A DNA stretch of 20,133 nt from a virus: positions 1 through 20,133 of IMG/VR virus record IMGVR_UViG_3300010158_000401, one strand, 5' to 3'. Positions 60-20,133 of the stretch are shown in pieces. Both the position numbers and the translations under genes were made by a program. A model generated the notes under the pieces. It made no database searches. It worked only from the letters and a program-made list of their open reading frames with translations, and was not told the DNA's origin. Positions within the stretch are counted from its first letter, which is position 1, and every line of letters begins with the position of its first letter.

Positions 60-707
60 ATGGGACAATACAAACCAATGCCAAAAATGAAAACAACCGA
101 GCCATCTGTTGAGCTAAAACTCAGAAAAGGTGGTATGGCTTGTAAGTCTGAAGGTGGCAAGATGGACAAAGCTCAAGACAAAGCTATGATTAAAAAAGCT
201 TTTAAGCAGCATGATAGTCAAGAGCACAAAGGCGGTAAAGGCACTACATTAAAGCTTCGTATGGGGGGCGGTATGGCACCTAAAGCAGGCCCTAATGTTA
301 TGGGTGGATTAGCTGGTGGTATATCAGCTACTCGTCCTGATAGAAAAGGTATGACTGGCAACATTGAACTGTCTAAATACAAGAAGGGCGGTATTGCTGC
401 ACAAGGCATGGCTACTGCCAATAAGTACCAAACTAAGATTAACGATGCATCAAAAGTAAAGTCTGTTAAAGGTGGAACCGGCGGCATTGAAATGTCTAAG
501 TTTAAAAGAGGCGGCACTGTTGAAGCCAAAGGAATGGCCTCAGCTCTCAAGTATCAAAACAAAATCAATGATGCATCATCGCCTAAGAAAGTTAAGGGCG
601 GTACTGGCGGAATTGAAGGGTCAAAGTACAAAGACGGTGGACACGCAGCCATGACTTGTAAAGCTGAAGGTGGCTTTGCCATGATGAAGAAAATGCAGAA
701 GTGCTAA
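60..707 (+). CDS. Lysine/glycine-rich repeat protein, probable virion-associated
   Basis: A 215-aa strongly basic protein: I count 39 lysines (about 18%), many in GG-flanked patches, and no tryptophan. Residues about 30-60 carry a segment (MDKAQDKAMIKKAF, then QEHKGGKG) that I recall from uncultured aquatic phage proteins of unknown role. Residues 99-139 and 140-181 are two copies of a roughly 41-residue repeat (SKYK/SKFK...GGMA-like...KYQxKINDAS...VKGG), and a partial third copy follows at 182-194. Four cysteines lie outside the repeats. There is no signal peptide or membrane segment. The start is set by a strong AGGAG. It lies between a probable capsid gene and neck genes, and a terminator follows at once. 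Binding to packaged DNA or to capsid charge is a reasonable guess, not a demonstrated function. Confidence 0.8.
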   Translation: MGQYKPMPKMKTTEPSVELKLRKGGMACKSEGGKMDKAQDKAMIKKAFKQHDSQEHKGGKGTTLKLRMGGGMAPKAGPNVMGGLAGGISATRPDRKGMTGNIELSKYKKGGIAAQGMATANKYQTKINDASKVKSVKGGTGGIEMSKFKRGGTVEAKGMASALKYQNKINDASSPKKVKGGTGGIEGSKYKDGGHAAMTCKAEGGFAMMKKMQKC

Positions 708-1193: not shown

Positions 1194-1793
1194 ATGCCAT
1201 TGATCAAAAGCAAATCCGACAAAGCATTTAAACAGAATATTGCAACTGAAATAAAAGCTGGGAAGCCTCAGAAGCAAGCTGTTGCCATTGCATATGCAGA
1301 GAAAAATGCTGCATCTAAGAAGTCAGGTGGCAGAGTAGGCTTATGGGCCAATATACATGCTAAGCAAGAGCGAATTAAGCATGGCTCAGGTGAGCATATG
1401 CGTAAACCAGGTAGCAAAGGCGCGCCTACAAACTATGATCTAAAGCATTCACAGTCTAAAAAAGACGGCGGTGATGTTCGTCTTTCTGTAAAAAGAGGTG
1501 AAAAACTGCCTACAAGTCAAGGTGCAGGACTAACTGCTAAAGGTCGTGAAAAAGTGAACAATGCAACTGGTTCTCACTTAAAAGCACCTGCGCCACACCC
1601 AAAGACAGAAGCTGACAAAGGTAGAAAAGCTTCATTTTGTGCTCGTATGTCAGGCGTTGTAAAGAATGCAAAAGGTGATGCACCAAGAGCAAAAGCATCA
1701 TTAGAGCGTTGGAATTGCAAAGACGGTGGTACAGTTAAGAAAAAGTCAAAGTCTAGTTATGGCGGAGTAATTAAAAAAATAAGCGGCTGGTAA
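1194..1793 (+). CDS. Basic protein with DUF6321-like C-terminal region
   Basis: A 199-aa protein with about 35 lysines plus many arginines. Residues 1-40 (KSKSDKAFKQNI then GKPQKQAVAIAYAEK) form a short helical motif widespread in phage proteins; its pattern recalls small basic DUFs such as DUF6496. Residues about 110-175 carry GLTAKGREK, then a conserved SFCARMSG, then a C-terminal RWNC, which matches my memory of the DUF6321 family. Residues between are low-complexity and basic. The start is two bases after the previous stop, so translation is probably coupled. No function is established. A structural or DNA-associated virion role is plausible from charge and from position next to neck genes. 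The family assignment is by eye. Confidence 0.75.
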   Translation: MPLIKSKSDKAFKQNIATEIKAGKPQKQAVAIAYAEKNAASKKSGGRVGLWANIHAKQERIKHGSGEHMRKPGSKGAPTNYDLKHSQSKKDGGDVRLSVKRGEKLPTSQGAGLTAKGREKVNNATGSHLKAPAPHPKTEADKGRKASFCARMSGVVKNAKGDAPRAKASLERWNCKDGGTVKKKSKSSYGGVIKKISGW

Positions 1794-1796
1794 ACA

Positions 1797-2855
1797 ATGT
1801 CAACTTCAGGTACTGTTAGCCAAACTGTAGTTACTGTTCAAAATCTAATTGATTCTGGTGCAAGGCGCGCCGGAAAATTAGCGGAGGAGTTAACAGATGA
1901 ACAAGTTGCGGCTGCTAAGCAATCACTGTATTATTTGCTATCTAGTCTTGCTAACTGGGGTGTTAACTATTGGTGTATTAATAAAGTTATTGTTGGGTTA
2001 AAACCTGATCAAAACTTTTATTATCTGCCTGAAGGCACAGTTGATGTTCTTAATGCCAATTACCGTACATTAACCAACGTTACTTCAGGTCAATACAGTT
2101 CATCTGGTAATACGGCAGCGGCATTTAATGGTGTTGGCAATCAAATTTGCCAACTAACCACAAATACCGGCTATATAGGCATTAATAATGGGTCTGGAAA
2201 CCCAGTAATGATCACAACAATAGGTATTTTACCTGCTGTAACCGGTTCAGTGACTATAACTTTACAATATTCAACAGACAATTCAACTTGGGTAACATTG
2301 CAAAGCCCAGGTGCAACAAATTGGGTAGCAGGGACATGGATTTACTATGATTTGCCTACTACAGTAACTCAGCCTTATTGGAGAATTAAACAGAGTGCTG
2401 GCGTTAACATGGGAATGTACCAAGTTGTATTCGGAACCAATCCGATGTCAATTAATATGGCCAGAATGAATAGAGATGACTATTCTAGCTTGCCAAACAG
2501 GAGTTTTGAAGCTTTACGACCATTGCAGTACTGGTTTAACCGTACCATTCCACAACCAAACATGGAATTATGGCCAGTACCTAATTCGATTGGTCCTCAG
2601 CTTGAACTCTGGTTAAATCGATACATACAAGATGTAGGAGACTTAAGCGGAGAGATAGAAATACCTCAGTATATGTATTTAGCCATTCAGTGGGGTCTAT
2701 CTCACCAAATGGCATCAGAACTACCTCAAGTCGACCCAGCTAGAATTGCTTATTGTGAGCAGCAGTATGAGAAGCACTTACTTATGGCTCAGAATGAGAA
2801 TAGAGACAAGTCTCCAGTATACTATGCACCAAATATTAGCTATTACACAAAATAA
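1797..2855 (+). CDS. P22 gp4-like head-tail neck (tail accessory) protein with an inserted beta domain
   Basis: A 352-aa protein. The N-terminal helical part (VQNLIDSGARRAG, then ELTDEQ and LYYLLSSLANWG at about 14-55) and the C-terminal part (RSFEALRPLQYWFNR, MELWPVP, then IEIPQYMYLAIQWGLSH at about 236-303) match the pattern of P22 gp4-type proteins, which attach below the portal and begin tail assembly. Between them, about residues 95-215, lies a glycine/threonine-rich segment ending in QPYWRIKQSAG. That is the sort of strand seen in discoidin / F5-8C-like carbohydrate-binding sandwiches, so the neck scaffold seems to carry an inserted beta domain. Compared with a compact gp4 (about 160-170 aa) it is roughly twice as long. 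The role as a neck protein is fairly secure; the insert's role is inference. Confidence 0.75.
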   Translation: MSTSGTVSQTVVTVQNLIDSGARRAGKLAEELTDEQVAAAKQSLYYLLSSLANWGVNYWCINKVIVGLKPDQNFYYLPEGTVDVLNANYRTLTNVTSGQYSSSGNTAAAFNGVGNQICQLTTNTGYIGINNGSGNPVMITTIGILPAVTGSVTITLQYSTDNSTWVTLQSPGATNWVAGTWIYYDLPTTVTQPYWRIKQSAGVNMGMYQVVFGTNPMSINMARMNRDDYSSLPNRSFEALRPLQYWFNRTIPQPNMELWPVPNSIGPQLELWLNRYIQDVGDLSGEIEIPQYMYLAIQWGLSHQMASELPQVDPARIAYCEQQYEKHLLMAQNENRDKSPVYYAPNISYYTK

Positions 2856-2857
2856 TC

Positions 2858-3229
2858 ATGCCAGTTTGGTTAGATACTTCCGGAAACACTGTTTTATCTA
2901 TCGCCATATGCGACAGATGCAAAATGAAGCGTGCTTATTCGGATATTAGACCAGATGGCAATATTCCAGGTATTCGAGTATGCGGTGAAGGTTGTTCAGA
3001 CCAATTTGACCCATATAGACTACCTGCAAGACAATCTGAAAAAGTTTCAATTAGATTTCCTCGACCTGATGCTAACGTAGATCAGTATAATGATGCTATA
3101 ACCACAGACCCTAATGTTGCGAATGAGCCTACACCTTTCGACCTTACAGGAACACCTGGCGAATTCGGGATTGCTCCTGAGACGGCAGAAGATGATATCG
3201 ATGGCAACTTGGATAACTTGAGTCCCTAA
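2858..3229 (+). CDS. Small Cys4 (zinc-ribbon-like) phage protein
   Basis: A 123-aa protein. Cys18-x2-Cys21 and Cys42-x3-Cys46 could form a zinc site of ribbon type. A basic stretch separates the pairs, and a conserved-looking DPYRLPAR follows. The C-terminal third is acidic and proline-rich (for example ETAEDDIDGNLD) and probably unstructured. The start is two bases after the gp4-like gene stop and its own stop is one base before the fibre gene, so it belongs to the same transcript. I know of similar small Cys-pair proteins beside phage neck genes but no assigned function. It could be a minor neck or assembly factor. Zinc binding is inferred from the cysteine spacing only. Confidence 0.7.
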   Translation: MPVWLDTSGNTVLSIAICDRCKMKRAYSDIRPDGNIPGIRVCGEGCSDQFDPYRLPARQSEKVSIRFPRPDANVDQYNDAITTDPNVANEPTPFDLTGTPGEFGIAPETAEDDIDGNLDNLSP

Positions 3230-3230
3230 T

Positions 3231-5753
3231 ATGGCAAATATAAGAATATCGCAACTACCTGCTGCCCCAAGTGCTATTACTGGTGCAGAGCTAATTCCAG
3301 TTGTTCAAAATGGTCAAACTGTACAGACTACTGTACAAGCGATCACTCAAAGCCCAACACAGACACAAACATTTTTAACTGTTGGTGCTCAAGCATCACT
3401 GCCAAATTCTCGTTACATTGGTGGTGGATTAGGCATTGGTTCATCAGACGGTGGTGCACAAGGCCTATACAGTTTATACTTAAATGGTACATCTGGTAGT
3501 TTAGAGAATGCATCTAATGGAATTATTGTTAAGACAGGCACAAGTACAGTTGCATCTAGACTAATTGCAGCAGGTACTTCTGGGTTAAGCATTTCTAATG
3601 GTAATGGAATTAGTGGCAACCCTACAATTTCTTTAACAGGCTTAGCTTTATCTGCTGCTACATTATCAGGCAGTGGCATGGTAAGCATTGTTGGTGGTTC
3701 ATACTATCAACAAGTTCAGTTGACAGGAACTACAAATCAAATCAATATTGCCAACCCTAATGGCGGCAGCAATCCTACATTTAGTATTGCAAATAACCCT
3801 ATACTTCCTGGTTCTTCAGGCACTCTTCTTCCTTACGGCACTACTGGTGATCGACCAGCAGCACCAACAAACGGAACACTAAGATATAACACTACAACAG
3901 CAACATTTGAAGGTTATGCAAATAGTGTATGGGGTGCAATTACAACTGGAACAGGTGTTACTTCAATACTAACTGGCACAGGCTTAACAGGCGGCCCAAT
4001 TACATCTATAGGCACTATCAGTATTGCTAACACAGGCGTAACAGCAGGTAGTTATACAAATGCTAACATTACAGTTAATGCGCAAGGCCAAATTACTGTT
4101 GCATCAAGTGGTTCAGCTGGGGGTGTTACAACATTTAGTGCTGGAACAACAGGGTTTACGCCTAGTTCAGCATCAACAGGCGCGATTACTCTAGCTGGCA
4201 CATTGAATGCTGTAAATGGTGGAACTGGCATAAACAGTTATGCCGTTGGTGATTTGCTTTATGCGTCTACAACCACAGCTTTATCTAATCTTGCTGACAT
4301 AGCTACTGGAAATGCTCTTATTTCTGGCGGTGTTGGGGTTGCCCCAAGCTATGGAAAGATTGGGTTAACTACACATGTAAGCGGCACTTTACCTATAGCT
4401 AATGGTGGTACAGGACAAACAACAACGTCAGCAGCATTTAATGCTTTGTCACCAATCACCTCAACCGGTGATTTAATTGTTGGTAACGGAACTAACAGCG
4501 CAACCCGTTTAGCTATTGGTACAAATGGTTACGTGCTTACCTCTAACGGCACAACAGCAACTTGGCAGGCATCAACCGATGGTGTAACATCATTTAGTGC
4601 TGGCACAACAGGATTAACACCAAACACTGCGACAACAGGCGCTGTGGTATTAGCAGGCACATTGAACGTTGCTAACGGCGGTACTGGTGTTACAACAAGC
4701 ACAGGTTCTGGTAGTAACGTACTAAGTACTAGCCCAACATTGGTAACGCCAATACTGGGAACACCAACATCGGTTACGTTAACAAACGCAACTGGCTTGC
4801 CTTTGTCAACCGGCGTAACTGGCACTTTACCTATTGCTAATGGTGGTACAGGTCAGACTACCGCATCAGCAGCCTTTAATGCTTTATCACCCATTACTAC
4901 GACAGGTGATGTAATTATTGGCAATGGAACAAATAGTGCTACTAGACTAGGAATCGGTTCAAACGGTCAAGTTTTAACCAGTAACGGAACTACTGCTACT
5001 TGGACAACCCCAGCTTCAGGTGGCGTAACTACAATTTCTTTTGGTTCTACAGGGTTAACACCTGCAACAGCCACATCAGGAGCAGTAGCTGTTGCTGGTA
5101 CATTAGCCGTAGCCAATGGCGGTACGGGTGTAACGGCTTCAACTGGTGCAAGTAGCGTTATGTTGCGTGATGCCAACCAAAACACCACAATTAATAATAT
5201 CGCATTTGGTACGGCAACCACCGCTACTGCTGGCGGTACAACTGTTTTAACTGTTGCTTCACCAGCCGTACAAAATTTTACTGGTACAAGTGCACAAAAT
5301 GTTCAATTACCTGATGCTACAACATTAGTGCTTGGTCATCTTTATTACATTAACAATCAAGCTAATAATAATGTAAGTATTAAAAATAATGCTGGCACTA
5401 CTTTATATACTGTATCTGGTGGTGGTGCAACTCAACTTACTTTAATTACCAATAATACGGCAAACGGAACATGGCAACAAAGTGCTTTTATTCCTAATAA
5501 TGTAAATTGGGGAACAACAGGATTATTTGCAACATCTACTACTGCATCATTTTCTAGTTTAACTTTAGGTACTGCTTTATCTGTTGCTAATGGTGGAACT
5601 GGTCAAAATTCAGCATTTGTTGCTGGCGGTGCAGTTTATGGCGCTTCTACAACAGCACTAGGCGTAACCGCTGCAGGTACAGCAGGGCAAGTTCTTTTAA
5701 GTAACGGCGCATCTGCGCCTACTTGGGGTAGCGTAAACGGAGGCACTTTTTAA
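3231..5753 (+). CDS. Large NGGTG-repeat tail fibre protein
   Basis: An 840-aa fibre. The N-terminus (MANIRISQLPAAP, then GAELIPVVQNGQTVQTT, residues 1-40) is a motif common at the start of phage tail-fibre proteins and is likely the virion-anchoring end. Most of the rest is Gly/Thr/Ser/Asn-rich repeats around NGGTG. Three copies of a FSAGTTGxTP...LAGTL unit begin near residues 299, 452 and 599. Two copies of a 61-residue unit (GTLPIANGGTGQTT ... TSNGTTATW) lie at 385-445 and 531-591. This composition suggests a trimeric beta-helical or beta-prism shaft. Residues about 680-760 are less repetitive and may form a knob. It ends in GGTF. There is no chaperone-like auto-cleavage domain that I can see. 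Role: host-surface attachment, inferred from composition and location. Confidence 0.85.
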   Translation: MANIRISQLPAAPSAITGAELIPVVQNGQTVQTTVQAITQSPTQTQTFLTVGAQASLPNSRYIGGGLGIGSSDGGAQGLYSLYLNGTSGSLENASNGIIVKTGTSTVASRLIAAGTSGLSISNGNGISGNPTISLTGLALSAATLSGSGMVSIVGGSYYQQVQLTGTTNQINIANPNGGSNPTFSIANNPILPGSSGTLLPYGTTGDRPAAPTNGTLRYNTTTATFEGYANSVWGAITTGTGVTSILTGTGLTGGPITSIGTISIANTGVTAGSYTNANITVNAQGQITVASSGSAGGVTTFSAGTTGFTPSSASTGAITLAGTLNAVNGGTGINSYAVGDLLYASTTTALSNLADIATGNALISGGVGVAPSYGKIGLTTHVSGTLPIANGGTGQTTTSAAFNALSPITSTGDLIVGNGTNSATRLAIGTNGYVLTSNGTTATWQASTDGVTSFSAGTTGLTPNTATTGAVVLAGTLNVANGGTGVTTSTGSGSNVLSTSPTLVTPILGTPTSVTLTNATGLPLSTGVTGTLPIANGGTGQTTASAAFNALSPITTTGDVIIGNGTNSATRLGIGSNGQVLTSNGTTATWTTPASGGVTTISFGSTGLTPATATSGAVAVAGTLAVANGGTGVTASTGASSVMLRDANQNTTINNIAFGTATTATAGGTTVLTVASPAVQNFTGTSAQNVQLPDATTLVLGHLYYINNQANNNVSIKNNAGTTLYTVSGGGATQLTLITNNTANGTWQQSAFIPNNVNWGTTGLFATSTTASFSSLTLGTALSVANGGTGQNSAFVAGGAVYGASTTALGVTAAGTAGQVLLSNGASAPTWGSVNGGTF
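4383..5003 (+). repeat. Two diverged 183-bp fibre modules (4383-4565 and 4821-5003)
   Basis: Each copy is exactly 183 bp in frame and encodes a 61-residue unit running from GTLPIANGGTG to TSNGTTATW. The proteins differ at few positions, but many codons differ (Arg CGT versus AGA, Leu TTA versus CTA, Ser AGC versus AGT). A third copy is in the next gene at 6036-6218. Confidence 0.85.
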
Positions 5754-5786
5754 TGTCTAAATATATAATGGCACAAAGGATTTAAT
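5754..5786 (+). promoter_or_regulatory. Intergenic gap with TATAAT, possible promoter or gene scar
   Basis: This 33-base gap is one of only three over 25 bases in the window. It contains TATAAT at 5764-5769, then ATGGCACAAAGGATTTAA, which is a 5-codon mini-frame whose AAAGGA serves as the ribosome site for the gene at 5787. No convincing -35 box is found at the usual distance. The TATA, ATGGCA and AAAGG order recurs in the gap before 12294. Confidence 0.3.
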
Positions 5787-6287
5787 ATGGCAGCTACTGG
5801 ATACACACCGATAATTCTGTTTAATAGCACGACTGCTGCGGCTGTGCCGACTACCAGCAATCTTGCTGTTGGCGAGCTTGCTCTTAATATCCCTGACGGA
5901 AAGCTTTATTACAATAAGTCAGGCACTATTACACTTCTTGCGAATGCAAATACTGCAGCGCCAGTAACTACGTTCTCAGCAGGTACAACAGGGCTTACGC
6001 CTAATACAGCTACTAGCGGTGCTATTACTCTTGCAGGTACATTAGCAATTGCTAATGGCGGTACAGGGCAAACAACTGCAAGTGCTGCGTTTAATGCTTT
6101 ATCACCGATTACAACTACAGGTGATTTAATTCTAGGCAATGGGACAAACAGTGCTACTAGACTAGCAATTGGTGCAAGTACGTACATATTAACTTCTAAT
6201 GGTACAACGGCAACATGGGCTGCTCCAGCAGCATCAGGTGTTTCAACAGGTAAGGCAATTGCCTTGTCAATGATCTTCGGTTTTTAA
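5787..6287 (+). CDS. Short tail-fibre protein sharing modules with the preceding fibre
   Basis: A 166-aa protein. The N-terminus (TPIILFNSTTAAAVPTT, then LAVGELALNIPDGKLYY, residues 7-42) resembles the N-terminal domain seen in major-tropism-determinant-like and other phage receptor-binding proteins. Residues 60-83 repeat the FSAGTTGLTP...LAGTL unit, and residues 84-144 are a third copy of the 61-residue NGGTG module; here the two units are fused at LAGTL. The C-terminus ends in STGKAIALSMIFGF, close to a GKAIA...FG ending I recall from many aquatic phage fibre proteins. AAAGGA lies six bases before the ATG. It looks complete rather than a fragment, because it has its own N-terminal domain and C-terminal tag. 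Probably an accessory fibre or a fibre tip/adaptor. Confidence 0.8.
   Translation: MAATGYTPIILFNSTTAAAVPTTSNLAVGELALNIPDGKLYYNKSGTITLLANANTAAPVTTFSAGTTGLTPNTATSGAITLAGTLAIANGGTGQTTASAAFNALSPITTTGDLILGNGTNSATRLAIGASTYILTSNGTTATWAAPAASGVSTGKAIALSMIFGF
6036..6218 (+). repeat. Third copy of the 183-bp fibre module
   Basis: This copy matches the modules at 4383-4565 and 4821-5003 in length, frame and most residues (NGGTGQTTASAAFNALSP is identical in the second and third copies). Codon choice differs at many positions, so it is an old duplication kept at protein level or gene conversion with diverged donors. Confidence 0.85.
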
Positions 6288-12293: not shown

Positions 12294-12926
12294 ATGACCG
12301 TTTCTTTCGTACTTACGTATGACTCGCTGACAACGACTGTGTTGCAGTATTTAGAGCGCAACGATCCAGCAACTGTTAATCAGATACCTACTTTCATTAC
12401 TATGTGCGAGTTTGAAATTGCACAGCAGATCAAGACTTTAGGTCAAATGCAAGTTGTTGAAAGTACTATGCTAGCAGGCAATCCGGTTATACAGAAACCT
12501 GCTAGATGGCGTAAGACGGTATCATTTAATGTGGTTGTAGATGGGTCACGAGAGCCGGTCTATTTACGGAAATATGAATACATTAAAGCCTATGCTCCGA
12601 ATGCTTCAGTGACCGGGCAGCCCCTTTACTACGGGGATTATGACTATGAGCATTGGTTAGTTGGGCCAACGCCTGATAAAAATTACAATTTTGAAGTTTT
12701 ATTTTATGAGCGTATTGCTCCTTTGTCTTCTGAAAACCAAACAAATTGGCTGACTCAGTATGCTCCAAATGCAATGCTATTTGGTACACTGTTACAAGCT
12801 ATGCCATTCTTAAAGAATGATCAACGAGTTATATTCCAACAAAAATATGATCAAGCTATGGCAATGCTGAAGACAGAAGACGTTACTCGCATTGGCGATC
12901 GCCAAGCAATTGCTATTGAAAGCTAA
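12294..12926 (+). CDS. SU10-type head-tail adaptor protein
   Basis: A 210-aa protein. The N-terminal helical region (LTYDSLTTTVLQYLERND, then IPTFITMCEFEIAQQIKTLG, residues 7-48), the central PARWRKTVSFNV and YLRKYEYIKAYAP, and YYGDYDYEHWLVGPTPD (about 107-123) form the pattern I recall for SU10-type / phage adaptor proteins that sit between portal and nozzle. The C-terminal helix carries ALLQAMPFLK-like LLQAMPFLKNDQRV and ends in a basic/acidic tail. There is no enzymatic motif. AAAGGG precedes the ATG. It lies near the gp10-like neck gene but is separated from the gp4-like gene by 9.4 kb of fibre and lysis genes, so the window seems to have two adaptor-type proteins. Role: joining head and tail, inferred. 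Confidence 0.75.
   Translation: MTVSFVLTYDSLTTTVLQYLERNDPATVNQIPTFITMCEFEIAQQIKTLGQMQVVESTMLAGNPVIQKPARWRKTVSFNVVVDGSREPVYLRKYEYIKAYAPNASVTGQPLYYGDYDYEHWLVGPTPDKNYNFEVLFYERIAPLSSENQTNWLTQYAPNAMLFGTLLQAMPFLKNDQRVIFQQKYDQAMAMLKTEDVTRIGDRQAIAIES
12892..12905. other. 14-bp perfect palindrome in the adaptor gene
   Basis: TTGGCGATCGCCAA is its own reverse complement and lies about 20 bases before the adaptor gene stop. It includes GCGATCGC, the core of the HIP1 sequence common in cyanobacterial genomes, but I find no other copy here. A coding coincidence is likely. Confidence 0.5.
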
Positions 12927-12928
12927 TT

Positions 12929-14158
12929 ATGACATCTTATGTAAACCCATTCACAGGTCAAACAATTCAACCAAGTCAAGTTGGCTATGAAAAGCTAACA
13001 ATTAGTACAGACACCATTCTTCAATGGCCTGTTAACGGTAACACAAATGATGTAGTTGCTAACATTATTGAAGTTACTGCAACAGTTAATACAAATCTTA
13101 AACTAATTATGCCTGCTGCTACTCAAGTATCAGTAGGCCAAAGTGTTTTAGTTAAGAACATTGGTTCATACTCATTTACAGTCACAAAAAGTGACGGTAC
13201 TACAATTATTTCAGTGGCTTCAGGTATTGCGCAATACATTTATCTTACTGACAATACAACCATACCTGGAACTTGGTCAGTAGTTCAATTTGGTGCTGGA
13301 ACAAGTTCTGCCAATGCTTCAGCTTTAGCAGGCTACGGATTAAAAGCAATTGACACTACTTTAAATCAGTCATATAATCTTGTTGCTTACTATTCCAATA
13401 CTGCTTTTACTGCCGCAAATAGAGCAGAATTTGCTGTTTGGCAAAGTGGTGTAGGTACATTTACTCTTCCGTCAGCTACAAGTGTAAGCAATAACTGGTT
13501 TATTAATATTCGTAATAATGGAACAGGCATTCTTACTATTGCTCCGGTAGGTTCTGACACTATTGACGGTGCTAGTAATAAACAGTTACAACTTACAGAG
13601 TCTTTAGTTCTTGTATCTGACGGTGCTGGAAAATTTAATTCGTTTGGTTATGGGCAATCTGCCACATTCTTTTTTACGCAATTAGCATTAGATCTTACAG
13701 GTCTTGGCCCTACTGTTACTCTTTCTTCAGCACAATCTGCCAATTTAATTCAAGAATACTTTGGAACATTAGTAGCCAATACAACTATTATATTGCCACC
13801 TACAGTTCAGTTGTATACTGTTACAAACAATACTACAGGCGCATATACTCTAAAGTTTTCAACAGGCACACTTGGCGCATCAACAGTACTTGTTGGACAA
13901 AACCAAACTTTAATTATTGTCTGTGATGGTACAAACGTCTATAATGCAAATAGTTCTGCAATTTCATCATTGCCTAGTTTAACTTTAAATCCAGGTTCTG
14001 CAGCTTCACCTTCATTAAATTTTTCAGGCAATACAACTACTGGCATATATCAACCGTCTAGTGGACAAATAGGCTTTTCATTAAACGGCACTAATAAAAT
14101 GACATTAAGCTCAACCGGATTAGCTGTTATTAACGGCATTTCTGGAGGATCATTTTGA
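12929..14158 (+). CDS. Fibre-like protein between adaptor and nozzle genes
   Basis: A 409-aa beta-rich protein. The N-terminus (TSYVNPFTGQTIQPSQVGYE, then ILQWPVNGNT and VTATVNTNLKLIMPAA, residues 2-65) is a motif I associate with phage fibre-like proteins next to neck genes. The middle has three similar strand groups ending in YIYLTDN (about 108), LVLVSDGAGKF (about 225) and LIIVCDGTNVY (about 330), each introduced by a TxT/ILPP-type strand; this suggests three related sandwich domains. Residues about 355-409 (PGSAASPSLNFSGNTTTG, IYQPSSGQIGFS) match the widespread fibre motif with GTASxPS..F.GD..TGIY. It ends in ISGGSF. The stop overlaps the TTG start of the next gene. Likely a neck appendage or fibre. 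The function is inferred. Confidence 0.75.
   Translation: MTSYVNPFTGQTIQPSQVGYEKLTISTDTILQWPVNGNTNDVVANIIEVTATVNTNLKLIMPAATQVSVGQSVLVKNIGSYSFTVTKSDGTTIISVASGIAQYIYLTDNTTIPGTWSVVQFGAGTSSANASALAGYGLKAIDTTLNQSYNLVAYYSNTAFTAANRAEFAVWQSGVGTFTLPSATSVSNNWFINIRNNGTGILTIAPVGSDTIDGASNKQLQLTESLVLVSDGAGKFNSFGYGQSATFFFTQLALDLTGLGPTVTLSSAQSANLIQEYFGTLVANTTIILPPTVQLYTVTNNTTGAYTLKFSTGTLGASTVLVGQNQTLIIVCDGTNVYNANSSAISSLPSLTLNPGSAASPSLNFSGNTTTGIYQPSSGQIGFSLNGTNKMTLSSTGLAVINGISGGSF
14144..14148 (+). promoter_or_regulatory. Ribosome binding site that sets a TTG start
   Basis: GGAGG lies six bases before TTG at 14155, inside the last codons of the 409-aa gene. With a 4-base stop/start overlap (TTGA) it supports TTG as the true start of the gp10-like gene, since the conserved IKPGIQRDGT begins only ten residues later and no ATG is available nearby. 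Confidence 0.7.
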
Positions 14159-15990
14159 CAGCTAAGGTTATATCTCTTCAGATTAAGCCAGGCATTCAGC
14201 GCGACGGTACATTATTTGATGCGCCAACATATGTTGATGGGCGCTGGGTAAGATTTCAGCGCGGTCGACCAAGGAAAATGAAAGGATATAGAGGCATTTT
14301 TATAAATGCTGCAGGCATTAGCCGTGGCATGTATATGAATTCTCAAAATGGTCTAAACTATATCTATTCTGGAACAAATAACAAGTTACAGATGTGGACA
14401 ACAGACAATAATAATGGTGTTGGTTCTGGGCCTTATGATATTGCTTTTGGCGGCGGTATACTAACACTAACTGGTAGAGTAGCTGGAACTTCATACACTA
14501 CAGGAACATACACAGGAGTTAGTCTTACAGGTGGTACAGGCGCTGGTGCAAAAGCAACGATTGTTGTTTCTTCAGGCGGTGTTTCATCAGTAACACTAAC
14601 TACAGCCGGCACAGGCTATACAGTAGGCGATGTTTTAAGCGCTACTTCAGCAACTATTGGTGGAACAGGTTCTGGGTTTAAAATCAATGTTGCAACTGTT
14701 ATCACTTCTTATACTGCTAATGCTAATAATCTTTGGCAGTTTGACAATGGTTTTGATGTGGCAGGCGGTGTGTCATACTTACTTGCACATCCTGGTCAAA
14801 ATTTAACAGACATTGACAGTACTGTTAATGTTCCTGTACTATATGGTGACTTTCCAGGCGGCACAATGGCTGAGTTAACTGATAGTCAAGGTTCAACTCC
14901 TTCAGGTGATGTCATTAGCGTGTCAGGTGGTTGTGTTATGCTTCACCCATACTTATTTGTCTATGGCAATAATGGGTTTATTAAAAATAGCTCTGCAGGT
15001 AACTTCTTTGATTGGAACTCTGCAGATGCTAACGAAACAAACGTAGCCACAGGTAAAATTGTTAAAGGGCTACCAGTTCGTGGCGGTACAACAGCACCTT
15101 CAGGTTTATTTTGGTCAACAGACTCTTTAGTTCGTGTGTCATATACGCCTACAACAGTAAGCGGTTCAACATTGTATTGGCGCTATGACATCATTACTAG
15201 TCAGTCTTCTATTATGTCTAGTCAATGTGTTATTGAATATGACGGTATTTATTTCTGGGTTGGTGTTGATCGATTCTTAATGTACAACGGTGTTGTAACA
15301 GAAATACCAAACTCAATGAACTTTAACTATTTCTTTGACAATTTAAACTATGCTCAAAGGCAAAAAGTCTGGGCTAGTAAGATTCCTCGTTGGGGTGAAA
15401 TTTGGTGGTTCTTTCCTAACGGTGATTCTGAAGAATGTAATGATGCGGTAGTATTTAATGTTCGTGAACAAGTCTGGTATGATGCCGGAACTGCTATTGG
15501 TGCTCGTAGATCGGCTGGTGTATTCTCTGAAGTTTTCCGTTTTCCTGTCTGGGCAGGAACAGAACAAAATTCAACAAATGGTTATACTTTATGGCAGCAT
15601 GAAACAGGCACTGATGAAATTTATTTAAACAATGTAGATGCAATTCAAAGCTATTTTGAAACTAACAATATTGGTTGGGTAACAGGCGGCCCAGGCGTTG
15701 ATGAAGCTTCAGGGCCTAATAAATGGATTCATTTAGAACGTGTTGAGCCTAACTTTAACCAATCTGAAGACATGAATATGTACATTACAGGCCCAAGTTA
15801 TGCACAAGGCCCTGATGATCTTAGTGACCCATATGTATTTGCACCTGACACACTTAAAATTGATTTACGTGAACAACGACGTGAAATGAGAATTAAGTTT
15901 GAAAGCAATACAATTCGTGGCAACTATGAAATGGGTCAGATTTTACTCTCTGCAGATCTTGGAGACGAGAGAGGCACAGGCAACCCATGA
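14155..15990 (+). CDS. P22 gp10-like head-closure / nozzle protein with inserted beta domain
   Basis: A 611-aa protein. Residues 10-46 (IKPGIQRDGTLFDAPTYVDG, then WVRFQRGRPRKMKGY) are the conserved start of P22 gp10-type 'packaged DNA stabilisation' proteins. The body shows the expected pattern (SGTNNKLQMW, NNLWQFDNG, VLYGDFPGG, a FWVGVDRFLMYNG near 365, IPRWGEIWWFFPNG near 410, and VFNVREQVWYD near 435), with blades like those of a propeller. At about 102-182 a glycine/threonine-rich segment (VSLTGGTGAGAKATIVV, TAGTGYTVGDVL) interrupts the fold. This is a phage beta motif seen in many tail proteins. The start is TTG, set by GGAGG. It should close the DNA-filled head after packaging. The neck call is fairly firm; the insert's purpose is not known. 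Confidence 0.8.
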   Translation: MTAKVISLQIKPGIQRDGTLFDAPTYVDGRWVRFQRGRPRKMKGYRGIFINAAGISRGMYMNSQNGLNYIYSGTNNKLQMWTTDNNNGVGSGPYDIAFGGGILTLTGRVAGTSYTTGTYTGVSLTGGTGAGAKATIVVSSGGVSSVTLTTAGTGYTVGDVLSATSATIGGTGSGFKINVATVITSYTANANNLWQFDNGFDVAGGVSYLLAHPGQNLTDIDSTVNVPVLYGDFPGGTMAELTDSQGSTPSGDVISVSGGCVMLHPYLFVYGNNGFIKNSSAGNFFDWNSADANETNVATGKIVKGLPVRGGTTAPSGLFWSTDSLVRVSYTPTTVSGSTLYWRYDIITSQSSIMSSQCVIEYDGIYFWVGVDRFLMYNGVVTEIPNSMNFNYFFDNLNYAQRQKVWASKIPRWGEIWWFFPNGDSEECNDAVVFNVREQVWYDAGTAIGARRSAGVFSEVFRFPVWAGTEQNSTNGYTLWQHETGTDEIYLNNVDAIQSYFETNNIGWVTGGPGVDEASGPNKWIHLERVEPNFNQSEDMNMYITGPSYAQGPDDLSDPYVFAPDTLKIDLREQRREMRIKFESNTIRGNYEMGQILLSADLGDERGTGNP

Positions 15991-16217
15991 TAAGTTACGA
16001 CCCTAGATATATGAAATGGGACAACTGGTGTGCTTTAATGGCAGAGCTATTTGCGCCTAATCAACTTGGTACATTACCTGAAGACAAATGGGTTGATTGG
16101 GCAGCAGGTCTAAACGGTATTGGTTATTTTACAGAAAACGGTGTACCTGATCCACGTGGTTTTAAAACTTGGCAAGACTGGGCAGCTGCTCTTTGTGGCA
16201 TAATTAGTATTCGATAA
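15987..16217 (+). CDS. Small protein with three WxxW repeats beside the nozzle gene
   Basis: A 76-aa protein. Three WxxW pairs (Trp11/14, Trp35/38, Trp62/65) recur at about 25-residue spacing in a WxxWxAxL pattern (KWDNWCALMAEL, DKWVDWAAGLNGI, TWQDWAAALCGI). This suggests a three-fold helical repeat with buried tryptophans. There is no membrane segment. The ATG overlaps the preceding stop (ATGA), and its stop is one base before the next ATG. I recall similar small proteins directly after gp10-like genes in other phages, with no assigned function. A minor neck or assembly component is plausible. Confidence 0.75.
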   Translation: MISYDPRYMKWDNWCALMAELFAPNQLGTLPEDKWVDWAAGLNGIGYFTENGVPDPRGFKTWQDWAAALCGIISIR

Positions 16218-16218
16218 C

Positions 16219-19200
16219 ATGGCACTTGAAACTTTAAACTCTACTGACCCGATTGCTGGACTATACGATAGTGTGTTTAAGCGTGCGCCTGATGCTGCTG
16301 GATTAGAATTTTGGAAAAATGCATATAACACAGGCACTTCACTAGAACAAATTAAAAATGCGTTTCAAAATTCACAAGAAGCACAAGCAAACCCTTATGT
16401 TAATACACTTGGTGGTACAGGCGCCAATCTTGAGCAAGGTTTTGTAAACCCAAATCGAGATAATGCTTTACCTAGTAATGTTCAAGCAACAACACAGCAA
16501 ACATCACTGCCAACTGGAACAGCAGGCACAACACTTAATGCTACTCAAATGGCTTCTACGGTTCCAGATCCAAATGAGGCAGCTATTACAAGTTTGTACG
16601 ATAGTGTGCTTAAACGAACACCGGATGCTTCTGGTTTAGCATTTTGGACACAAGCAGCAAAAAATGGAATGTCTTTAGCTGACATTAAATCGTCTATTGC
16701 GGCTTCACAAGAAGGCACAGCAACAACTGCAGTTAATAACCTTTACACAAACTATACTGGAACAGCACCAACTGCAACTCAGTTAAATGATGCAAAGACA
16801 CAGCTTAGTTCTGGCAAGACGGTAGATGATGTAACAAAGAGCTTATTAGCTACTCCGACTACTAAGACTTCTATTGAAAAATTAATTACTCAGATGTATG
16901 ATGATCGTCTAGGTCGAGTACCTGATGCAAATGGGTTATCGTTCTGGTCTTCTAAAGTGCTTAACGGTCAAATGACATTAGCGGATGTTGCTAAACAAAT
17001 TGGTACCTCATCAGAAGGATCAACAGCCGCTTCAGTTGCTAATATTTTCCAGCAATATACCGGAAAACTCCCTACGCCACAAGAATTAGCAGATGCTCAA
17101 GCTTTGTTAAGATCTGGTAAAACAATAGATGACGTAACAAAAAACTTAGCAGCTAATGTAGCTAATAAGCCTGCTGTTGAAAAACTAGTTTCTCAGATAT
17201 ATACAGACCGTTTAGGTCATTCGCCTGATGCAAGTGGTTTAGCTTTTTGGACTTCCAAAATAACCGCTGGAACAATGACATTAGCTGATGTTGCTAAACA
17301 GATTGGCGGGTCAACCGAAAGCACAGCATTCCAAAATGATCCTGTTATAAAGCTCTATCAGCAATATGTAGGTCGTACACCTTCGTTAGCAGAGTCTGAT
17401 TTTTGGAGAACACAACTGTCTAAAGGCATACCTCCAGCAGAGATTGCTAAAGGAATTGCTTTATCTGATGAAGGCATTAAATATTCAACAACTAATTTAA
17501 AAGCAATTTTAACAGCACAAATAGGTGCTGATTTTGTTAACAGTTTAACTCCATCACAAATTACGCAATATGCTACTTTGCTTGCAGACCCTAGTTTAAC
17601 TACTCGAGCACCAAAGTTGTCACAAGATCAATTTGACTCTAATTACTATTTAGCTCAAAACCCCGATGTTGTTAGAAATGGTTTTGACCCTTATACGCAT
17701 TACAAACAGTTCGGATATAATGAAGGCCGCGCCGGTAGTGCAACTGATAAAATTCAAATAGCCAAAACTAATGACGACAAGATAAGAGATATTTATGGTC
17801 AAATGGCAAAAGACCCAGTGCTTGGTGAAAAGATAAAAGCAAGCAGTCCACTTTTATATGAGGCAGTAACGCCATTAACTGACATTGGTGGTAAGTTGAT
17901 TAATGGAACGCTTAATTATAACTATGGCTCATACAATGATTTACCTATTTTAAATGCAAATGTTGCACTTGCTGCTGTAGGCGATGGCAATGTAATGACT
18001 AACTTTTCTCATAAGCGTGGCCATATTACCGATAATCTTGGGTGGCAAGGAACTGGATATAGTGGGAAAATTTTACGAGGCGCTGACGCTGTTGGTGTAA
18101 CTGTTAATCTTGATGAAGACGGTAATGTCGGTAGTTATTCCGGGTTAAACGAAGCCGCTGATTTGCTTGGAATTGACAAGAATCAATTTAAAGATAAACA
18201 AGTTCCACTTTTAACTAAAGATGTAAGAGATAGTGACGGCAATGTAGTATCAATAGCTGGCCAACCGGTTTATAAAACAGATGGAAACGGCGACTACCTA
18301 TATGATGATAAGGGTCAGCTAATACCAAAAATGCGTACAATAACCGCAGAGTCACAGCTTTACGACGCCGTTGATAAAGCGTCAAAAAGCATTTGGTCTG
18401 TAACACTTAACTCACTTGAACCTGGCCAAGCAGTTGAAAAAGGTTCAAGAAGCTTCCAAACTGCACTATATAGACAAGAAGGCGATAAGTTATTAGCTAT
18501 TTCTAAGGCTGTGTCACACGGCGGTGTGTATAACATGGATATATACACTGGCGGTAGCGGATTTAACTTTGGTCGTGATATAGCACCAGGCCTTGTTTTT
18601 GTCGGAACAGCTGCATTAACCATGGCTACACTAGGAGGTTCAGCTCCATTAACAGCAATTGGTGCAGGTGTAGGCTTAACTGGCTCAGCAGCCACCATTG
18701 CCGGTGGCGTTATTGTTGGTGCAACCATGGGAGGTCTAAATGCATCAGCATCTGGCCAAGACCCAGGCAAAGGCATATTAACTGGTGCTGCTATCGGCGG
18801 CATCACATCTTCGATGCAACCGCTAATGAATACAGGACCTGTAGCCGGCGTGCTTAAAGATGTTTCAGAAGCATCAGGTGGCTTTTATACTCAACAACAA
18901 CTTGGAAGTATTGTTGGTACAACTTTAGCAACTACTGTAGGTAGTGCAGTTAAAGGCGCAAATGGAGATCAGATTTTTGAAGCATTTGCCACGTCTTTAG
19001 CGGCTAATGGTATTAGCCAAACTGGTGTAAGCGCCATTACTTCTGCATTAAAAGATGTTGTATCTCCAGACACAATGGCTAAGATTGCACGAGCTACACA
19101 AATTGCTGGAAGCACTGTAGCAACATCTGCATTAAGCGGTAAGAACCAAGAGCAGATTTTTAATAATTTAATTAGTCAGTTTGCTGACCCAACTAAAGCA

Positions 19201-20133
19201 ATTGGCACCATAGGCAGTGTTGTAACAGCAAAAGATACGACAGGTGGCGGTACAACTACGACAGGTGGCGGTACAACTACGACAGGCGGTGATACAACTA
19301 CATCTACTGCAAACGACACTAAAATAAATGATATTGCTTCAAATTTTGGTATATCTGCAAATGATTTAAAGTCAATTTTATCTGATGCCCCAGATGTTGC
19401 TGACAAGTTATTTGGCACTGGAACTCAAGTTGCAGATATTTCAGGAACAATGCCTTTTGGCAAAAGTAATGTGCCAGGCACTGAAGGCTATGACCCAAAA
19501 CAGCCTACTATTGATTTACCTAAAGTAGCAACTGACTTAAAAGCTAGTCTAGATAATGTTCCAGCTACTGATTTGTCGCAAGGATTAAATGTTAATGCAA
19601 CACACTTTACGCCTACATTAACATTACAAGATTACACAAATGACAAGAAAACATTACAAGACCAATATGATAAAAAAGAAATAACAGAAGAGCAATTTAA
19701 AAAAGATAATGCAGCATTAGACAAAGATTTTAATAATCAAACTCAAAACTTAACTCAAGCATTAAATCTTCTTAACACTCTTATTAGTAAGGGTATGGAT
19801 GCTAATACTGCATTAACAAAGTCTGCAGTTGCAACTAATTTAAACAAACTAGACTTAGCCAGCGTAATTACAGGCAAAACAAACACTAATACACAAGTCA
19901 CAGGAACTGGTACTAACACAACTAGTACTGTTACAACTAGTACTGTTACAACAGGTACAGGAACAGGCACTAACCTAACAGGAACAGGCACTAACCTAAC
20001 AGGAACAGGTACTAACCTAACAGGAACAGGCACTAACCTAACAGGAACAGGCACTAACCTAACAGGAACAGGCACTAACCTAACAGGAACAGGCACTAAC
20101 CTAACAGGAACAGGCACTAACCTAACAGGAACA
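16219..20133 (+). CDS. Giant DUF4214-repeat protein, 3' end beyond the window (partial)
   Basis: An open frame of 1305 codons from ATG at 16219 with no stop before the window ends. Several DUF4214 units are visible (for example LYDSVFKRAPDAAGLEFW near 15, LYDSVLKRTPDASGLAFW near 125, MYDDRLGRVPDANGLSFW near 224, IYTDRLGHSPDASGLAFW near 325, LYQQYVGRTP near 377), with half-repeats between. FDSNYYLAQNPDVVRNG and HYKQFGYNEGRAG at 472-508 form a motif common in secreted surface proteins. A glycine-rich hydrophobic region at about 787-865 could cross or disrupt a membrane. A charged stretch near 1134-1160 (KKTLQDQYDKKEITEEQF) resembles a SHOCT helix. The end is low-complexity TG-rich repeats. No Shine-Dalgarno is obvious. 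It may be an adhesin or an ejected internal protein; I cannot decide which. Confidence 0.8.
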   Translation, partial: MALETLNSTDPIAGLYDSVFKRAPDAAGLEFWKNAYNTGTSLEQIKNAFQNSQEAQANPYVNTLGGTGANLEQGFVNPNRDNALPSNVQATTQQTSLPTGTAGTTLNATQMASTVPDPNEAAITSLYDSVLKRTPDASGLAFWTQAAKNGMSLADIKSSIAASQEGTATTAVNNLYTNYTGTAPTATQLNDAKTQLSSGKTVDDVTKSLLATPTTKTSIEKLITQMYDDRLGRVPDANGLSFWSSKVLNGQMTLADVAKQIGTSSEGSTAASVANIFQQYTGKLPTPQELADAQALLRSGKTIDDVTKNLAANVANKPAVEKLVSQIYTDRLGHSPDASGLAFWTSKITAGTMTLADVAKQIGGSTESTAFQNDPVIKLYQQYVGRTPSLAESDFWRTQLSKGIPPAEIAKGIALSDEGIKYSTTNLKAILTAQIGADFVNSLTPSQITQYATLLADPSLTTRAPKLSQDQFDSNYYLAQNPDVVRNGFDPYTHYKQFGYNEGRAGSATDKIQIAKTNDDKIRDIYGQMAKDPVLGEKIKASSPLLYEAVTPLTDIGGKLINGTLNYNYGSYNDLPILNANVALAAVGDGNVMTNFSHKRGHITDNLGWQGTGYSGKILRGADAVGVTVNLDEDGNVGSYSGLNEAADLLGIDKNQFKDKQVPLLTKDVRDSDGNVVSIAGQPVYKTDGNGDYLYDDKGQLIPKMRTITAESQLYDAVDKASKSIWSVTLNSLEPGQAVEKGSRSFQTALYRQEGDKLLAISKAVSHGGVYNMDIYTGGSGFNFGRDIAPGLVFVGTAALTMATLGGSAPLTAIGAGVGLTGSAATIAGGVIVGATMGGLNASASGQDPGKGILTGAAIGGITSSMQPLMNTGPVAGVLKDVSEASGGFYTQQQLGSIVGTTLATTVGSAVKGANGDQIFEAFATSLAANGISQTGVSAITSALKDVVSPDTMAKIARATQIAGSTVATSALSGKNQEQIFNNLISQFADPTKAIGTIGSVVTAKDTTGGGTTTTGGGTTTTGGDTTTSTANDTKINDIASNFGISANDLKSILSDAPDVADKLFGTGTQVADISGTMPFGKSNVPGTEGYDPKQPTIDLPKVATDLKASLDNVPATDLSQGLNVNATHFTPTLTLQDYTNDKKTLQDQYDKKEITEEQFKKDNAALDKDFNNQTQNLTQALNLLNTLISKGMDANTALTKSAVATNLNKLDLASVITGKTNTNTQVTGTGTNTTSTVTTSTVTTGTGTGTNLTGTGTNLTGTGTNLTGTGTNLTGTGTNLTGTGTNLTGTGTNLTGTGTNLTGT
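19240..19302 (+). repeat. Three 21-bp in-frame repeats (TGGGTTT)
   Basis: Two exact copies at 19240-19260 and 19261-19281 and a diverged third at 19282-19302 encode TGGGTTT-type heptads within the giant protein. They look like a flexible linker between the hydrophobic core and the C-terminal part. Confidence 0.85.
19918..19947 (+). repeat. Two 15-bp in-frame repeats (TTSTV)
   Basis: ACAACTAGTACTGTT occurs twice in tandem (19918-19932 and 19933-19947), encoding TTSTV twice. It follows an isolated TGTGTNT unit at 19900-19920 and precedes the main 21-bp array, so this part of the gene has undergone repeated slippage. Confidence 0.85.
19957..20133 (+). repeat. 21-bp tandem array (TGTGTNL) running off the window end
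   Basis: Eight full 21-bp units (starts 19957, 19978, 19999, 20020, 20041, 20062, 20083, 20104) plus nine bases of a ninth encode the heptad TGTGTNL. All are identical except one silent GGC to GGT change in the third (20010). An older related unit (TGTGTNT) is at 19900-19920. The length is a multiple of three, so copy-number change alters length but not frame. The true copy number cannot be known because the window ends inside it. Confidence 0.9.

Follow-up and report, generated by a model that had tools for sequence, protein, structure and literature searches.

A giant phage protein that joins a DUF4214 array to a conserved C-terminal module, and its probable place among podoviral ejection proteins

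Podoviral ejection proteins travel within the virion, leave it by way of the tail and reassemble into a channel that spans the envelope (PMC8954989). They are mosaic, varying in size and lytic domain, and published members have often been matched by synteny and size, not by sequence (PMC8954989). Tape-measure proteins lie inside the tail (PMC11445458, PMC13033339), and for that of JBD30 its authors proposed ejection as well as cleavage at residue 1066 (PMC11445458). In segmented filamentous bacteria the DUF4214 domain is regarded as likely to anchor proteins to the surface (PMC12780176), and in Halomonas it is seen as part of an extracellular protein that may be anchored (PMC11970703); the publications consulted name no ligand for it. 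Here we analyse a 20,133-bp linear virus record (the window), whose last gene encodes a giant protein originally predicted to combine surface-type domains with a segment resembling phage ejected proteins. The two do coexist in one protein.

The giant gene and its short-tail machinery

Judged by profile matches, the window phage has short-tail machinery comprising nozzle, adaptor and portal. The portal matches phrog_1216. A SU10-type head-tail adaptor (12294..12926, +), a tail fibre-like protein adjoining the nozzle (12929..14158, +) and the podoviral nozzle or tail hub itself (14155..15990, +) were assigned, the last from matches to phrog_3287 and to the solved nozzle proteins 8zkm and 8zkk. 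Among the ORFs tested, a subset of those on the 57-kb contig introduced below, we observed no convincing tail-tube or assembly-chaperone family; the ORF at 1797-2855 gave one weak match to phrog_9522 'major tail protein' (E=1e-5), and in MW202545 the ORF at the corresponding position carries the annotation 'tail adaptor'. Elsewhere in the window, two adjoining fibre-like ORFs (3231-6287) share repeated 'NGGTGQTT.SAAFNALSPITTTGD..IGNGTNSATRL' segments. In a related locus, a GroES-type co-chaperonin-like protein (L034:12904-13326) lies between the portal and scaffold-like genes; the gene in the equivalent place in MW202545 is labelled 'chaperonin 10 kd subunit'.

The giant ORF, a putative virion protein, was confirmed to be real; it occupies 16219..20133 (+), is separated from the nozzle gene by a small ORF of 76 residues (15987..16217, +) and is still open at the 3′ end after 1305 residues. 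A scan with its central region identified locus L007, which belongs to a contig of 57,235 bp from the same phage. Over the length of the window this contig is identical apart from 4 substitutions, and the missing 3′ end could be read there (L007:6552-11198). The complete protein has 1548 residues, bearing out the prediction of a single protein of more than 1300 residues, and obtaining its 3′ end, as had been recommended, reveals a conserved C-terminal module. This link is visible only with the full-length protein, as the truncated protein of the window has no match in PHROGs or INPHARED. The giant itself has no match in PHROG, among PDB sequences or, using its low-confidence core model, with Foldseek.

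The contig end falls within a 21-bp tandem repeat coding for TGTGTNL (19957..20133, +; 98% match). In L007 this array comprises 8.8 units, after which the ORF runs on to its full length. A further 21-bp tandem repeat with 3 copies forms a Thr/Gly-rich linker at 19236..19301 (+). Relatives have differing T/G-rich repeats at the position of the longer array, and contigs L006, L016, L025 and L026, and probably L022, likewise stop inside them. Because several contigs with the giant gene end inside it, the T/G-rich repeat appears to break assembly.

The DUF4214 array, the core and the Gly/Ala-rich region

Five DUF4214 (PF13946) domains score above the Pfam curated cut-off (16228-16389, 16573-16719, 16861-17019, 17158-17325 and 17347-17475, +; whole-protein E=1.2e-42), and with two degenerate units in between they form an array spanning 16228..17475 (+). 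With a DUF4214 profile built from the giant's own family, 2000 shuffles of the N-terminus reached a maximum of 6.8 bits; given that profile's origin, independent support comes from the Pfam E-value. The YYLxxNPDV...HY..FGxxEGR motif, here YYLAQNPDVVRNGFDPYTHYKQFGYNEGR, lies at residues 476-504 (17644..17730, +), such that both surface-protein hallmarks for which the gene had been noted are present. Among the relatives, the NPDV motif occurs once in L014 and twice in L022. Pfam matches to HTH_AraC and Paramyxo_C were weak, under the cut-off, and were rejected, and comparison of DUF4214 with the PDB yielded chance-level matches only.

The N-terminal 509 residues match plasmid proteins of Rhodobacterales, Roseomonas and Pseudomonas, most of them annotated DUF4214. 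Among the matches listed in the collection search, identity was 25-31% with E-values down to 6e-15, agreeing with the predicted relationship to bacterial surface or RTX-type proteins; direct comparison with three bacterial proteins gave up to ~32% (E=6e-21) over longer alignments. Two of these three have RTX-like repeats and none has the phage core or C-terminus. This homology speaks for a further suggestion of the original prediction, namely capture from a host adhesin, considered here as a recent capture whose product is secreted from infected cells. The remaining evidence points the other way: the array does not differ from the remainder of the gene in GC or GC3, the C-terminus is conserved and phage-specific, the neighbours are phage structural genes, and an N-terminal hydrophobic (Sec-type) signal was found in none of eight relatives. 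A comparison with host genomes, made as a scan for short exact patterns and weak as a test of absence, returned no bacterial match for the core or the first DUF4214, and the same architecture occupies the same position in about nine or more phage lineages. Recent host capture was rejected on this uniform composition and phage-wide distribution, and an adhesin of this kind is highly improbable. The array thus shares a distant ancestry with bacterial surface-type proteins, whereas a recent transfer is not supported.

The array is followed by a predicted mixed beta/alpha core domain at residues ~511-787 (17749..18579, +), seen only in close relatives. Its AlphaFold model, built from 10 sequences, is of low confidence (pLDDT 61) and has no fold match in the PDB or BFVD. 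Residues ~788-1000 (18580..19218, +) form a Gly/Ala-rich, moderately hydrophobic helical region with 32% G+A and 8% charged residues. The long Gly/Ala-rich hydrophobic core of the prediction thus stands as a Gly/Ala-rich helical stretch, but its hydrophobicity is moderate only, with a best 21-residue Kyte-Doolittle mean of 1.63, which makes it a weak candidate for a membrane segment; a 21-residue hydropathy of 1.6 is reached in 21 of 70 members of the wider family described below. The region is weakly similar to the shorter proteins encoded at the same position in MW202545 and Caulobacter phage GB2A. Searching each region separately, as originally advised, hence resolves the protein into DUF4214 at the N-terminus, a core without a fold match, and a C-terminal module that defines a phage family.

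IMG/VR scans with core alignments recovered relatives 37-57% identical over the core, plus contigs of the same phage. In relatives whose gene is complete at the 3′ end, the protein has 1328 to 1627 residues, the longest (L042) having been found via its DUF4214, and each of nine records of close relatives searched contains 2-6 DUF4214 matches. A nozzle gene precedes the giant gene in all close relatives checked, and where the 3′ side is present, the giant is followed by a protein of ~300-350 residues and then by one of ~530-680 residues. The latter is an M23 peptidase in L007 and matches phrog_873 in L008 and L017; comparing L007:12267-14012 with L008:12019-13614, we observed that the lytic domain is exchanged at equal position (M23 peptidase versus phrog_873 type). 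Large downstream proteins in L014 (17844-20480) and L015 (18235-21120) start with FYHxSxSPxIKxFD, which we take to resemble the ADP-ribosyltransferase domains of polyvalent phage proteins; the L014 protein matches phrog_3170 (unknown function).

The conserved C-terminal module and its gene neighbourhood

The last ~90 residues of the full-length giant form a conserved module that we confirmed, using a profile of the last ~100 residues, in at least 542 viral contigs, of which the best 80 were analysed. In 79 of these 80 best loci, exactly one ORF matched a profile of the ~350-residue neighbour, 3′ of the ORF tagged by the module, and nozzle profiles matched upstream in 61 of the 80, the remaining loci being truncated or having a very long stretch at this slot; these proportions are valid for the top set only, because the nine training sequences of the neighbour profile include that of the window phage's own neighbour and the loci were chosen as top scorers. 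The median gap from tagged ORF to neighbour in the best 80 of the at least 542 loci is 5 nt, and in four loci the neighbour is 470-660 nt away. In two of these four, L058 (6303-6887) and L068 (6258-6881), the intervening ORF between the slot and ejection-protein genes looks like an HNH homing endonuclease.

The tagged ORFs themselves are very different from one another. Among 70 complete ones, length ranges from 226 to 2055 residues, a ninefold spread at fixed synteny. An alignment of 42 members has a mean column identity of 12% with little in common N-terminally, and apart from the start Met all invariant columns are near the C-terminus. In these 42 members DUF4214 is the commonest Pfam domain, with 4 cases against 2 of GDSL lipase and single ones of RTX and others; collagen repeats occur in one of five further giants, and most N-termini have no match. 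The giant is therefore a member of a large phage family with a constant C-terminal end and a very variable N-terminal part. In L076, the start of the ORF upstream of the tagged ORF (1591-3624) reads like DUF4214 units with weak profile scores, which suggests that the array can be a separate gene. Small basic proteins of the window (60-707 and 1194-1793) have repeated K-GG motifs, which are also seen near the slot-protein C-terminus.

The neighbour appears to be an ejection protein, a function that rests on the PHROG annotation of its relatives, which match phrog_4287 'DNA ejection protein' (E=1.6e-9 and 1.6e-11). The window phage's own neighbour has no PHROG match, and its AlphaFold model, computed from 54 sequences, shows long helices at pLDDT 71 and matches no PDB fold significantly. 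Beyond the neighbour come genes for peptidoglycan hydrolases or internal virion proteins (M23; phrog_342 'internal virion protein with endolysin domain'). The order of nozzle, slot protein with the module, a protein of ~300-350 residues and larger proteins is also found in the named phages GB2A, MW202545, DSL-LC04 and Synechococcus phage MinM2, some of them with additional ORFs separating the slot protein from the nozzle. In GB2A the neighbour hits phrog_4287 'DNA ejection protein'; lytic transglycosylase or internal virion protein families are matched by genes further along in both GB2A and MW202545, two phages that lack DUF4214. Ejection-region proteins of MW202545 (L018:25997-27232 and 24074-25993) are strikingly cysteine-rich, one with a CCSCCC repeat run.

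Such a neighbourhood bears on the reading of the giant as an internal capsid protein that remains behind in the emptied head without ever being delivered. Ejection being a proposed step leaves this reading some room, but an operon with ejection-protein and lysin homologues argues against it and makes it very unlikely.

The module also provides a link to tape-measure proteins. Its profile finds the mycobacteriophage Douge tape-measure protein (two copies; E=1e-10), the C-terminal motif is present in tape-measure protein sequences of solved entries (8zdo, E=1.1e-10), and a weak match in the JBD30 tape-measure protein (residues 1021-1054) sits just before the proposed cleavage residue 1066. By analogy, the motif could be a docking or cleavage site in the giant's family. 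This shared motif, together with the annotation 'tape measure' of the slot proteins in GB2A and DSL-LC04, would suit a tape-measure protein of a long non-contractile tail. We give that reading little chance given the podoviral nozzle and SU10-type adaptor, the lack of a convincing tail-tube or chaperone family in the ORFs tested beyond the one weak phrog_9522 match, and a slot protein whose length varies ninefold at fixed synteny. The original prediction had also allowed that homologues might reveal a well-known tail or core protein; module and synteny do place the giant in an ejection or tape-measure-like family, but it has no PHROG match.

Proposed role and comparison with known systems

Because its slot, neighbours, mosaicism and Gly/Ala helices fit podoviral ejection proteins, we conclude that the giant is probably a tape-measure-like podoviral ejection (pilot) protein, sited inside the virion or in its tail channel and bearing a constant C-terminal address. 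Its presence in the virion, ejection, membrane insertion and envelope binding are what we infer from this reading. The giant would pass through the nozzle before the DNA does, with its C-terminal ~90 residues serving as the address that docks it to the portal or nozzle or to the partner ejection protein encoded downstream. The Gly/Ala-rich helical region might then insert into or line a trans-envelope channel, and the DUF4214 array and NPDV motif may grip host envelope or surface material during or after delivery. The N-terminus would thus be cargo, in the giant's lineage an envelope-binding one.

The leading alternative is that the giant forms an external part of the tail, such as a needle, plug or hub-bound fibre, with the C-terminus at the nozzle tip and DUF4214 outside as a host-surface adhesin. 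In P22 the needle gene gp26 directly follows gp10, so the slot alone, with the giant gene after the nozzle gene, leaves room for such a part, and surface-type domains (DUF4214, RTX, collagen, lipase) and length variation suit a receptor-facing role. This rival is nevertheless unlikely: an ejection-protein homologue is almost always directly downstream, the window has separate tail-fibre genes, and the C-terminal motif is common to tape-measure proteins, which are located inside the tail (PMC11445458, PMC13033339).

Beyond the probable ejection role of the giant, we tentatively consider, at less than even odds, that the slot is a widespread phage delivery platform, in which a constant C-terminal ejection address is joined to interchangeable N-terminal cargo acting in the host envelope, the cargo reaching about 2000 residues and consisting of DUF4214 anchors, of lipase, RTX or collagen-like domains, or of unknown ones. 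The analysis offers a testable role for a common, so far unnamed family of putative phage virion proteins; through the shared motif it connects podoviral ejection proteins to the tape-measure proteins of siphophages, and the DUF4214 array suggests that phages reuse bacterial surface-binding domains in genome delivery. Should the C-terminus be a loading signal, this could account for the entry of unrelated N-terminal domains into virions.

Compared with known systems, the giant shares a tandem DUF4214 array (~25-31% identity) with bacterial surface or RTX-type proteins of Pseudomonas, Thioclava and Pseudosulfitobacter, which carry RTX or other extracellular-type domains and are without the phage core and C-terminal module. 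With siphophage tape-measure proteins such as Douge gp16 and JBD30 gp46, it shares the GxGxGxSDxIxAxLxxGEFV motif and, like them, is long and partly hydrophobic; unlike them, it has the motif at the extreme C-terminus, its length is free of the tail-tube constraint, and no long-tail machinery was found. The slot proteins of Caulobacter phages RW, RLK, KcrB and GB2A, isolates of one species (PMC11053796), and of MW202545 share the giant's slot, C-terminal module and downstream neighbour, but lack DUF4214 and the core and are less than half its size (580 residues for GB2A gp065c, 639 for MW202545). Relative to known podoviral ejection proteins (T7 gp14/gp15/gp16, P22 gp7/gp20/gp16 and DEV gp71-73), no sequence similarity was detected, the constant C-terminal module sets the giant apart, and its DUF4214 array and T/G-rich repeats were not found in the published descriptions consulted. 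It nonetheless shares with them a late structural operon position, a helical Gly/Ala-rich region, mosaic domains and variable size, and like the T7 set it adjoins a DNA-ejection-protein homologue and peptidoglycan hydrolases (PMC8954989).
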